A stretch of 64,000 nt of DNA, from NCBI GenBank assembly GCA_017305635.1, contig JAFKKF010000010.1, forward strand, positions 62,001 to 126,000, written 5' to 3'. The first letter of the stretch is position 1. The number at the start of each line of letters is the position of its first letter. Position numbers and translations under genes: made by a program. This document shows, piece by piece, positions 32,685 through 49,264 of the stretch. Below the pieces are notes generated by a model that had not been told where the DNA came from, made no database searches, and saw only the letters and a list, made by a program, of their open reading frames with translations. This DNA comes from Hyphomicrobiales bacterium. GTDB taxonomy: Bacteria; Pseudomonadota; Alphaproteobacteria; Rhizobiales; Kaistiaceae.

Positions 32685-33086
32685 ATGGCGGAGAGCTCGA
32701 CCGGTGGTGCCGCGACGGGCGGAGTACGACTGCTTCTCAGGCTTGAGGGCTTCGCGCTGTTCGCTGCGGCCATCGGAGCCTATGTCACCCTCGACGGGAG
32801 ATGGTGGCTGCTGGCCATCCTGATCCTCGCGCCCGACCTCGCCTTCCTCGGCTATCTCGCCGGCAACCGCCTCGGCGCGGCTGCGTATAATGCGGCACAT
32901 TCGACGATCGGGCCGCTGGCACTTGGGTGCGTCGCGCTCGCGGCTCATTGGCCGACGGTGCTCTCCATCGCCTTGATCTGGGCTGCCCATGTCGGCATCG
33001 ACCGTGCCCTTGGCTACGGCCTCAAATATGCCGACGGCTTCGGCAATACCCATCTCGGCCGCATCGGGCGGCAGGCGCTCAGCTAA
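32685..33086 (+). CDS. DUF4260 membrane protein
   Basis: A 133-residue polytopic membrane protein with about four hydrophobic helices. The family pattern is clear: LLRLEGFALFAAAIGAY, LILAPDLAFLGYLAGNRLGAAAYNAAH and the C-terminal HVGIDRALGYGLKY. The function of DUF4260 is unknown. Its TAA stop overlaps the convergent atp12 stop (CTAA). Confidence 0.85.
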   Translation: MAESSTGGAATGGVRLLLRLEGFALFAAAIGAYVTLDGRWWLLAILILAPDLAFLGYLAGNRLGAAAYNAAHSTIGPLALGCVALAAHWPTVLSIALIWAAHVGIDRALGYGLKYADGFGNTHLGRIGRQALS

Positions 33087-33838
33087 CCGCCGCCCTTAAG
33101 GACCAGCGCCGCCGCATCGAATTCGGCGCGGCGGGCCGCACGGCGCTGCATGGCCATGTCGTCCTCGCCCCAGTGGCGGGCCTGCCAGTCCTCGTCGACA
33201 TGGGCGGCGGCCCAGGCTTCGTCGGCCGTCAGTCGGCCGCGGGCGAGCGCGAGCGCAATGATTGCCGAGCCGGTCAGCGTCGTCACCACATGGAGCGCCG
33301 CAAGCTCCAGCGAATCCAATGGCTTGACCGCTTCGGCGATGGCCGCGAGAGCACCCTCGTCCTGGCGGACATGGGTGATCCCGCCGGCGAGGATGAAGCG
33401 GGCGCCGAGGGCCTCGCGGGCCCAGGCAAGGAGGGGATTCCAGGCGGCGTCCTCGGCCGAAACCAGCGATTCCGGACCATCGGCGCGGTAGAGAATCGCA
33501 TCGGTCCCGGCATAGGCGACGATGTCGGCGCGCACCGCGTCCATCTCGGCCGCGACCCGGTCGATCGCCGAATTGACGAGCTTCGTCAAAGGCATGGCGC
33601 CCGGATCGATGCGCTCGCCGACGGCGTTCCACTCGGCCGCGATGGCTTCGGCCACCGCTTTGTCCTTCACGGCCAGGGGCTTGCGTGCCGGTGTCCGGGC
33701 TCCACGGCCATCGAGCTTGAGAGCGAAGCCGCCCTCGCCCACCGGCTCCGCCGTGGCTAAGGCATAGAAACGCTTGGGCAATTCCGGCCGGGCGAGACGT
33801 TGCGCGGTGCTGACCGGATCGGGTTCCTCGCCGGTCAT
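33083..33838 (-). CDS. ATP12-family F1-ATPase assembly chaperone
   Basis: A 251-residue homologue of mitochondrial Atp12, which holds the F1 alpha subunit before assembly. Conserved stretches are FYALATAEPVGEGGFALKLDGRGARTPARKPLAV, EWNAVGERIDPGAMPLTKLVNSAIDRV and the C-terminal SLELAALHVVTTLTGSAIIALAL with WQARHWGED. Its start ATG overlaps the stop of the pseudouridine synthase gene (ATGA), so the two are coupled; this order is common in Rhizobiales. Confidence 0.9.
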   Translation of the reverse strand: MTGEEPDPVSTAQRLARPELPKRFYALATAEPVGEGGFALKLDGRGARTPARKPLAVKDKAVAEAIAAEWNAVGERIDPGAMPLTKLVNSAIDRVAAEMDAVRADIVAYAGTDAILYRADGPESLVSAEDAAWNPLLAWAREALGARFILAGGITHVRQDEGALAAIAEAVKPLDSLELAALHVVTTLTGSAIIALALARGRLTADEAWAAAHVDEDWQARHWGEDDMAMQRRAARRAEFDAAALVLKGGG

Positions 33839-34917
33839 TCGTCGCTCCCGTCATCGGAAACGTCGCCGAGATCGGGGTCGAAACCGAGGAGGTTCCACGA
33901 CTGCTGCATATGCGGCGGCAGGGGTGCGGACACGTCGAGATGCCCCCCGGACGGGTGCGGAATCACGATGCGACGGGCGTGGAGATGGAGCTTGTTCTGC
34001 ATCCCGCCGGGAAAGTCCCAATTCTCGTCGGCGGAGAAATATTTCGGGTCGCCGATGATCGGGTGGCCGATATGGGCGGCGTGGGCGCGGAGCTGGTGCG
34101 TGCGGCCGGTGACCGGGCGCATCGAGAGCCACGCGAGCCGCTGCCCGGCATTCTCGACGACCGAGTAGAGCGAGACCGCGTGGCTCGCCTCGTCGTCGCC
34201 GTGGCGGGCGACGCGCATGCGCTCGGCCGCCTCCTCGCGCGCCAGCCAGGTGGAGATGCGACCCTGGCGCGGCTTCGGCACGCCCTTCACCAGCGCCCAG
34301 TAGATCTTCTTGGTGGAGCGCTGGCGAAAGGCTTCCGCCAGCTTCTGCGCGGCAAGGCGGGTGCGCGCGACGACGAGGACGCCGGACGTGTCGCGGTCGA
34401 GGCGGTGGACGAGGCGCGGCTTCTGGCCCTTCCGGTCGGTCAGCGCCTCGAGCATGCCGTCGACATGCTTGGTGAGACCCGAGCCGCCCTGCACGGCAAG
34501 CCCGGCCGGCTTGTTGAAGACGAAGACCTGGTCGTCCTCGTGGAGGAGGTACGAGCGCAGGATGTCGGCGTCGGACTGGCGTCCGCCGGCGCGCGGAGCC
34601 GCGGGAGCACGGGCGCCGCTTGCGGCGGGAGCGCCCCCCTTTCCGGTGCGCGGCGCCCTGCCCTCGGCATCTCTCGCGGGTTCCGCACTGGCCGGGGCCT
34701 TCGCCTCGCCGGCGCCGAGCGGCGGCACGCGCACGGACTGGCCGGGCTCGAGGCGCGTATTGGTCTTCACCCGTCCGCCATCCACCCGCACCTGTCCGGA
34801 GCGGATCAGCTTCTGCAGGTGGCCGAAGCCGAGATCGGGATAGTGGACGTGGAACCAGCGGTCGAGGCGCATACCCGCCTCGTCGGATTCCACCTGCCGG
34901 GTTTCAACGCTTGCCAT
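33835..34917 (-). CDS. RluA/RluC-family pseudouridine synthase
   Basis: Converts uridine to pseudouridine in rRNA, probably 23S. The 360-residue protein has an N-terminal S4 RNA-binding domain (DRWFHVHYPDLGFGHLQKLIRSGQVRVDGGRV), an Ala/Pro-rich linker, then the catalytic domain with HRLDRDTSG, in which the Asp of LDRDT is catalytic, and RPVTGRTHQLRAHAAHIGHPIIGDPKY. The C-terminal tail is acidic. It most resembles RluC, but the exact target cannot be read from sequence. It is followed by atp12 with a 4-base overlap. Confidence 0.9.
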   Translation of the reverse strand: MASVETRQVESDEAGMRLDRWFHVHYPDLGFGHLQKLIRSGQVRVDGGRVKTNTRLEPGQSVRVPPLGAGEAKAPASAEPARDAEGRAPRTGKGGAPAASGARAPAAPRAGGRQSDADILRSYLLHEDDQVFVFNKPAGLAVQGGSGLTKHVDGMLEALTDRKGQKPRLVHRLDRDTSGVLVVARTRLAAQKLAEAFRQRSTKKIYWALVKGVPKPRQGRISTWLAREEAAERMRVARHGDDEASHAVSLYSVVENAGQRLAWLSMRPVTGRTHQLRAHAAHIGHPIIGDPKYFSADENWDFPGGMQNKLHLHARRIVIPHPSGGHLDVSAPLPPHMQQSWNLLGFDPDLGDVSDDGSDE

Positions 34918-34947
34918 GCCGGGCCTTTCTCGGTCCGCGTCATATCA

Positions 34948-35331
34948 TCAGGCCAGGGACCTGACGAGCCAGAGCCCGGCAAGAATGCCGACGAGCGCGA
35001 GGACCACGGAGCCGATCACGTAGGCGGCCGCCTGCCCGGTCGCGCCACGCTCCCAGAGCAGCGCCGCATCGAGCGAGAAGGTGGAGAAGGTGGTGTAGCC
35101 GCCGAGGATGCCGGTGGTCGCAAAGAGGCGGACATGCTGCGACCAGCCGCCGCCGGCCTTGAAGGCGAAGAAGGCGACGAGCACGCCCATGAGGAACGAG
35201 CCGGTGACGTTGATGATCGCGGTCGACCACGGAAAGCTGGTCCCGGCGATGCGTGCGACGCCGAGATTGATGAGATGGCGGATCGTGGCGCCGATACCGC
35301 CGCCCACGAAGACGAGAATGACCTGGTTCAT
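34948..35331 (-). CDS. crcB: Fluoride channel FluC (CrcB)
   Basis: A 127-residue inner-membrane protein with four helices, exporting fluoride as an antiparallel dimer. Hallmarks are GGGIGATIRHLI at the start, NVTGSFLMG in helix 2, and TTGILGGYTTFSTFSLD in helix 3 with the phenylalanine pair of the ion path. A fluoride riboswitch precedes the gene on the same strand (35440-35490), which strongly supports the assignment and predicts induction by fluoride. Confidence 0.96.
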   Translation of the reverse strand: MNQVILVFVGGGIGATIRHLINLGVARIAGTSFPWSTAIINVTGSFLMGVLVAFFAFKAGGGWSQHVRLFATTGILGGYTTFSTFSLDAALLWERGATGQAAAYVIGSVVLALVGILAGLWLVRSLA

Positions 35332-35439
35332 GATTCACCCGTTGGCGGGAGGGAGGGGGCCCGCTATTGCTCGCGTCCGTCTGATCGGGCTGCGCCCGCC
35401 GCGGCGGGTTCCGGACATGATCCCACCGCGATGCCGCAC

Positions 35440-35490
35440 GGTAGGAGTCATCGGCCTGGCGTGGCGGTTGAAGGGAGACCCCATTCCCTG
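35440..35490 (-). promoter_or_regulatory. Fluoride riboswitch (crcB motif)
   Basis: Read on the minus strand, the region has P1 GGGA (35488-35485) closing with TCCC (35476-35473) around ATGGGGTC, then CAACCGCC, a short stem GCC/GGC, and the conserved end GATGACTCCTACC. GGGGTC can pair with GACTCC to form the pseudoknot. This order, spacing and the terminal GATG-N-C-N-CCTAC match the known fluoride aptamer. It lies about 110 bases before the crcB start, leaving room for an expression platform containing a CCCGCCGCGGCGGG palindrome. Confidence 0.9.
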
Positions 35491-35530
35491 CCGGCCAATA
35501 TAGGGGCGGGCGGCGGGCGGCGGAAGCGCT

Positions 35531-36007
35531 TCAGGCGGCTTCGGCACGCTCGGGGGCGAGCGAGAGGATCTTCTGCACGTAGTCGTCGGGGAAGCCGAGC
35601 GCCGCGCCGCAGCGCGCAATGTGGCTGAGGTACTCGCGGGAGGGCTCGCCGGTATAGGCCATGGGGCTCGCGACGTAAGTGAAGGCTGCGGCGCGGCCGC
35701 CTTCCAGATAGTGCACCTGCACGTCGATCCGGTTGTAGGGATTGCCCGCGCGATCGGAGGCGACGAAATAGCCCTCGCAGGCGTCGAGGCGCTTCAGATC
35801 CGACTCCGCGACCTCATAGAGGGCGCCCCAGATGGCCTCGTCGACCGCTTCCTCGATGCTTGCCAGCGCCGACTGGCGGATGAAGGAATAGCGTGGGAAC
35901 GAGAGGCGGTAGCCGTCGAGCCTGGCGACGCCGACCTGCCGCGCGCCGCGGCAGCGCAGGCGCATCTGCTGAGCATCGACGTTGCCGCCATAGGCGAAGT
36001 AGATCAT
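35531..36007 (-). CDS. Gamma-glutamylcyclotransferase-like protein
   Basis: A 158-residue GGCT/AIG2-like protein. It begins IYFAYGGNVDAQQMRLRC, the substrate-loop motif YFAYGSN of the family, and has the putative catalytic Glu in LDACEGYF; WGALYEVAESDLKRLD is the typical middle strand. Members cleave gamma-glutamyl peptides to 5-oxoproline, but the substrate of this one is unknown. ATG 36007 puts the motif at the very start as usual; ATG 36043 would add 12 residues. Confidence 0.85.
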   Translation of the reverse strand: MIYFAYGGNVDAQQMRLRCRGARQVGVARLDGYRLSFPRYSFIRQSALASIEEAVDEAIWGALYEVAESDLKRLDACEGYFVASDRAGNPYNRIDVQVHYLEGGRAAAFTYVASPMAYTGEPSREYLSHIARCGAALGFPDDYVQKILSLAPERAEAA

Positions 36008-36179
36008 CGTCCGTACACTCGAAACCCGCCCCGTTTTCCCCATCTATGCGAGTCGCCGCCTTCGCTCACGCGCGAAGATTTCTTGCGATTTTCATGATTT
36101 GGGGAACGGAAAGCCGCGCGATTCGAGCGGTTCCGGTCGTGTCAGGCCCGGCCATGACGGCAGAGGACGCGGAATCGCC

Positions 36180-48954: not shown

Positions 48955-48983
48955 AAATAAAAAGGCCGGGTTTCCCCGGCCTT
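48955..48983 (-). terminator. Intrinsic terminator of cspA-like gene
   Basis: On the minus strand GGCCGGG (48981-48975) pairs with CCCGGCC (48970-48964) over GAAA and is followed by TTTTTATTTTC. It sits 72 bases after the cold-shock gene stop; its T-tract runs into the leader of the next small gene. Confidence 0.92.
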
Positions 48984-49054
48984 CCTCGAGACGCCTCTAT
49001 TCGGTCAGTGCCAGTACATCCGTGGTCAAGGACCGGAAGCGTCTCCGCCGAAGG

Positions 49055-49264
49055 TCAGGCGGCGCGCAGGTTGTCGGCGGCATTCTTGCCGCTGCGCTTG
49101 TCGCGCACCACATCGAAAGTGACCTTCTGGCCTTCCGTGAGGGTGCTCAGGCCCGAACGCTCGACGGCCGAGATATGGACGAAAACGTCCGGCTGGCCGT
49201 TGCCCTGCTCGATGAAGCCGAAGCCCTTGGCGGCATTGAAGAACTTGACAGTTCCAGTATTCAC
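49055..49264 (-). CDS. Cold-shock protein, CspA family
   Basis: A 69-residue single cold-shock domain RNA/DNA chaperone. RNP1-like KGFGFIEQ and RNP2-like VFVHISAVE are intact. It starts at GTG 49264, giving the usual [14 protein letters not shown] beginning, with AAAGGAATC as ribosome site; the longer frame upstream is untranslated leader. The long 5' region may be cold-regulated as in other csp mRNAs, but no specific box was verified. It is followed by an intrinsic terminator. Confidence 0.94.

Follow-up and report, generated by a model that had tools for sequence, protein, structure and literature searches.

A fluoride riboswitch with a predicted competing hairpin in the crcB/fluC leader of a Hyphomicrobiales bacterium

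The 5' leader of the crcB/fluC gene in the window (the whole stretch of 64,000 nucleotides that was analysed) contains an aptamer of the fluoride family, which very probably acts as a riboswitch that turns this exporter gene on when fluoride is present. The whole window was scanned against 4227 Rfam families, and the Fluoride family RF01734 matched positions 35435-35497 of the minus strand with 44.7 bits over model positions 1-64, its full length, the gathering score of this family being 34 bits. The match is far beyond chance because its E value is 4e-09 for the whole window and 4227 families, and a local scan gives the same match. An initial annotation of this DNA had read a fluoride riboswitch in front of crcB/fluC by eye and proposed the covariance model as a check; the reading is confirmed by a score above rather than below the threshold, by crcB lying 103 nt downstream and by the same aptamer in 10 related crcB leaders. 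The span it gave, 35440-35490, falls within the match, which extends slightly further at both ends. The over-threshold Rfam matches in the window number six: four tRNAs, RF01734 and one ar35 alphaproteobacterial small RNA (48955-49063, minus strand, 56.6 bits).

The leader reads TGGCCGGCAGGGAATGGGGTCTCCCTTCAACCGCCACGCCAGGCCGATGACTCCTACCGTGCG on the minus strand from 35497 to 35435, and all the parts named in the initial annotation are present in it. The 5' strand of P1 (GGGA, 35485-35488) pairs with the 3' strand placed by the covariance model (TCCC, 35473-35476), and the P1 loop holds the 5' strand of the pseudoknot (GGGGTC, 35477-35482), whose partner GACTCC lies at 35444-35449; these two strands form six standard pairs, including one G-U. 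The conserved joint and the 5' strand of the second stem make up CAACCGCC (35463-35470), within which GCC pairs with GGC at 35454-35456, and the terminal GATGACTCCTACC, read directly from the sequence, occupies 35440-35452. With 7 nested and 6 pseudoknot pairs, every one of them standard, P1, the second stem and the pseudoknot can all form. The same helices are supported in alignment A1, which comprises 33 aptamers (32 distinct) and leaves out L011, L015 and the insert-bearing L040-L043, L045, L046 and L049. P1 is 100% paired across the 32 distinct aptamers, and the named helices taken together reach 98.1% pairing. Both partners have changed in 6 of the 13 pairs, a count that none of 500 shuffles attains; for the pseudoknot, 96.4% of cells are paired and three of the six pairs have changed on both sides. 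The model R1 scores the window aptamer (L002) at 61.7 bits, L002 itself being among its 33 training rows. The description of the motif as unusually well resolved was overstated, given that relatives reach 61.4 bits and that position 38 is off consensus here.

The gene downstream, crcB/fluC (34948-35331, minus strand), encodes a fluoride exporter of 127 aa that matches Pfam PF02537 (91.6 bits, cut-off 32.9), NCBIfam NF010794 (165.3 bits, cut-off 125) and TIGR00494 (83.5 bits, cut-off 80.45). It is single-copy in the source genome, and fluoride control is now assigned to this only crcB. With 103 nt between its 3' end and the crcB ATG, the aptamer is part of the 5' leader that precedes this fluoride-resistance gene; a probable Shine-Dalgarno (SD) sequence, GGGTGA, lies within those 103 nt at 35335-35340. 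A possible -10 box, TATATT (35497-35502, minus strand), was noted by eye, as were CCTAAT or CATAAT after TTGCA at the same place in relatives; a consensus scan found no promoter, a point against the main explanation. Upstream, also on the minus strand, an AIG2/gamma-glutamylcyclotransferase-like gene (35531-36043) ends 199 nt before the crcB ATG. On the other side, an RluA-family pseudouridine synthase gene (33835-34917, minus strand) begins 30 nt after crcB, and its end is overlapped by an ATP12 chaperone-like gene (33083-33838, minus strand), so that the three genes form a tight row over 33083-35331. Since the ATP12-like gene follows the synthase gene in many loci of the family, the fluoride switch may stand at the head of an operon containing housekeeping genes. 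The pairing of crcB with the RluA-family synthase is independent of the switch, as it occurs with or without the aptamer.

We assigned the numbered core positions of the aptamer from spacing and take them to be those of the structure papers, an assignment that agrees with the numbers in the accessible part of PMC10687018. In the alignment of 65 aptamers, which come from 61 loci and leave out the over-threshold match G397:C45 and the below-threshold matches of the order scan, A6, G8, A40, U41 and U48 are identical in all 65, and position 38 is occupied by U in 61 aptamers and by C in 4. The window aptamer matches the consensus at A6, U7, A40, U41 and U48 and is among the four with C, its base equivalent to U38 lying at 35453 on the minus strand. 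In the portions of PMC10687018 and PMC11586693 consulted, U38 forms a reversed Watson-Crick pair with A6 (A10 in PMC10687018) and A40-U48 is the linchpin pair, and the corresponding portion of PMC8004769 describes the tertiary contacts of the Bacillus cereus aptamer in its own numbering; these portions of the three papers mention no effect of C38. A C at this position should weaken the reversed A-U pair, and it counts against the main explanation. U38 was treated as strongly preferred rather than absolute, and hence not as a condition of RF01734 membership. The natural replacement means that the strictness of the need for the reversed A-U pair could be measured. The other C38 aptamers are L013:1501-1575, L071:1001-1061 and L058:538-600, and of these L013 precedes crcB.

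Directly after the aptamer core, the minus strand can form a competing hairpin, whose 5' strand TCCTACCGTG (35437-35446) overlaps the 3' strand of the pseudoknot and makes ten pairs with CGCGGTGGGA (35421-35430) at -16.0 kcal/mol. The 33-nt stretch containing it has a folding energy of -17 kcal/mol (z -3.86), a stability equalled by none of 200 shuffles. The hairpin excludes the bound fold because it consumes three of the six bases of the pseudoknot 3' strand together with the linchpin U. It is possible in the same columns and register in all 11 crcB-linked leaders, where 83.5% of the cells of its 11 pairs are paired and 4 of the 11 pairs have changed on both sides, a count reached by 6 of 500 shuffles; column pair 13-40, for example, exchanges A-U for G-C. 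The paired fraction of its inner 8 pairs is not above that of shuffles (157 of 500), partly because these columns hardly vary. Its retention in register across the 11 leaders suggests how the switch flips, and it agrees with the part of PMC13273304 consulted, in which terminating fluoride riboswitches are reported to have aptamer and platform folds that exclude each other. The far strand has an alternative partner, as CCCGCCGCG (35400-35408, minus strand) can pair with CGCGGTGGG (35422-35430) at a predicted -17.9 kcal/mol, and CCCGCCGCG could capture CGCGGTGGG once the aptamer is locked.

With fluoride and Mg2+ present, the aptamer would close the pseudoknot between 35477-35482 and 35444-35449; in the absence of fluoride, part of the pseudoknot 3' strand would be drawn into the hairpin 35437-35446 x 35421-35430, excluding the aptamer fold. 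The far strand of the hairpin would otherwise be free to pair with 35400-35408, and this alternative pairing could relay the choice in the direction of the ribosome-binding site, with translational control as the most likely outcome. Fluoride binding, the direction of control and the translational readout are what we infer from these elements. The claim that the riboswitch explains how the gene is controlled holds for the aptamer and its placement before crcB, and exceeds the evidence on the fluoride response and the control route.

Regarding this route, no intrinsic terminator was found in a scan of 34900-35700, which makes translational control the likelier readout, supported by predicted folding only under some settings. 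With the locked state imposed by constraints (the two stems held and the pseudoknot strands kept unpaired), opening the crcB start region is predicted to cost 7.0 instead of 10.2 kcal/mol, and 1 of 100 platform shuffles gives as large a gain. Six settings, that is, choices of footprint and transcript end with 150 shuffles each, were applied to the window: in two of them the gain lies beyond nearly all shuffles (1/150 and 0/150), and in the other four it is reached by 53, 27, 30 and 126 of 150. The test of SD release was carried out over 11 leaders with 100 platform shuffles each, and in the 10 related leaders the gain is equalled by between 3 and 85 of the 100 shuffles, with no consistent signal; SD release is therefore not a shared signal. 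Given these mixed results over the 11 leaders and the six window settings, it was rejected as a general mechanism and retained only as the likelier route. A capture of the SD-AUG region by the P1 loop was also rejected, as it is absent from the window and the locked-fold gain is mostly within shuffles in the relatives. In 4 of the 10 leaders of the related genus g8 (L007, L008, L012 and L013), ATGGRGTCTCC could form an 11-pair helix with the SD-AUG region, and in L010 the P1 loop could form a 9-pair one; among these five leaders the locked-aptamer gain exceeds shuffles only in L008 (3/100), the shuffles reaching it in 85/100 for L007, 83/100 for L012, 81/100 for L013 and 43/100 for L010.

The aptamer might instead act by ending transcription: when fluoride is lacking, RNA polymerase would be stopped before crcB either by the hairpin or by Rho, working on the untranslated, C-rich leader. 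Some fluoride riboswitches do end transcription: in the transcription assay described in the consulted part of PMC13273304, 323 of the 1901 tested proved functional. The crcB leader is indeed long and C-rich; this reading is nevertheless unlikely, as the terminator scan was empty and the hairpin at 35421-35446 lacks a U-run, the sequence after it being AUCAUGUCC.

It is far less probable that the aptamer is a decaying relic whose fluoride sensing has been lost. The C38 seen in only 4 of 65 aptamers and the relatives that have the AIG2-crcB gene order without an aptamer speak for decay, but no other numbered core position and no pseudoknot pair is disrupted, the score is above the RF01734 threshold, C38 recurs in three other aptamers, one of them in a crcB leader (L013), and the competing hairpin has been kept through the exchange at column pair 13-40. 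As for a functionless chance resemblance, nothing was found in its favour, and it is already refuted in practice by the match, with its E value over the window and the whole library, by the family distribution, with crcB directly downstream and 10 related genomes that also have this aptamer before crcB, and by the pseudoknot covariation. A fluoride riboswitch that turns crcB on remains the preferred reading.

The distribution of the aptamer among relatives is patchy. All 28 genomes of the family have crcB, and an over-threshold aptamer was found in 11 of them, namely the window's genome and ten genomes of g8, in each of which crcB lies 93-103 nt downstream of the aptamer. Genome G006 (locus L015) has a sub-threshold match that is unlinked to crcB, and at the level of the order an over-threshold match was present in 48 of 397 sampled genomes. 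In the 17 genomes of the family that lack an aptamer at crcB, no divergent aptamer was detected with Rfam at E up to 1 (17 loci), and model R1, also at E up to 1, detected none near the crcB genes examined or the Prim-Pol relatives described below, over 31 loci (19 family crcB, 7 crcB of named genomes and 5 Prim-Pol relatives). These negatives cover crcB copies with a locus, the crcB of G011 (L087) lying at a contig end with its leader outside the data. Seven relatives (L079, L080, L084, L090, L098, L102 and L104) have AIG2 directly upstream on the same strand, with an AIG2-crcB gap of -4 to 45 nt (up to 60 nt if later crcB starts are used instead of the first plausible one) versus 199 nt in the window, and neither Rfam nor R1 scans found an aptamer in relatives with this gene order. 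These relatives pack crcB against AIG2 and leave no room for a switch, from which it follows that the leader carrying the aptamer was either inserted or kept from an ancestor. Common descent with the g8 leaders is favoured by the register that their hairpins have in common with the one in the window.

The leader is an ordinary case of a well-known riboswitch class, with small lineage-specific details. It shares with the RF01734 crcB motif the full-length match, P1, the second stem, a joint of the CAACCGCC type, the six-pair pseudoknot and crcB downstream, and differs from it in the C at the U38 position and in an anti-aptamer hairpin without a terminator. As in the transcriptional crcB riboswitch of B. 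cereus, described in the consulted parts of PMC10687018 and PMC13273304, the platform competes with the aptamer fold; in contrast to it, no intrinsic terminator was found in the window leader. Translational fluoride riboswitches are also known; those of Pseudomonas syringae and Burkholderia pseudomallei serve as translational controls in the accessible text of PMC13273304, and at the level of the readout they resemble the present one in a likely translational route and the lack of a termination signal. In open-licence full text, nothing was found on this specific leader, and its new details are C38, the in-register competing hairpin, the lack of a terminator and the aptamer-free AIG2-crcB relatives.

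The source genome contains a second RF01734 match (G000:C23:256328-256388, equal to L004:6329-6389, minus strand, 50.7 bits), which lies on the same contig, 159 kb from the crcB aptamer, has U at position 38 and has no crcB nearby. The first long gene past it, 214 nt downstream, encodes a primase-polymerase-like (Prim-Pol-like) protein of 218 aa (PF09250, 51.7 bits) and is followed by a glycosyltransferase gene. We know of no role of Prim-Pol genes in the fluoride response. The protein is rare in the class: among 289 sampled genomes, 13 have a match, the source genome being one of them. No aptamer was found near five loci of Prim-Pol relatives (R1, E up to 1), and the sole match at 12 further loci is weak (8.4 bits, E 0.48), so fluoride control of Prim-Pol was rejected as a recurring arrangement. 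The second aptamer could be an orphan or a relic. A two-tier fluoride response, with the C38 crcB aptamer as a sensor of shifted affinity and the U38 aptamer controlling the stand-alone Prim-Pol-like gene, is conceivable and highly doubtful.

Elsewhere in the same order, genome G173 carries seven fluoride riboswitches within 20 kb (G173:C22:157565-176872; L058, L060 and L066) and an eighth elsewhere in its genome. One of them (L066) precedes an enolase gene, as seen among 18 proteins chosen for scanning from 65, and this arrangement suggests a fluoride-resistance island.
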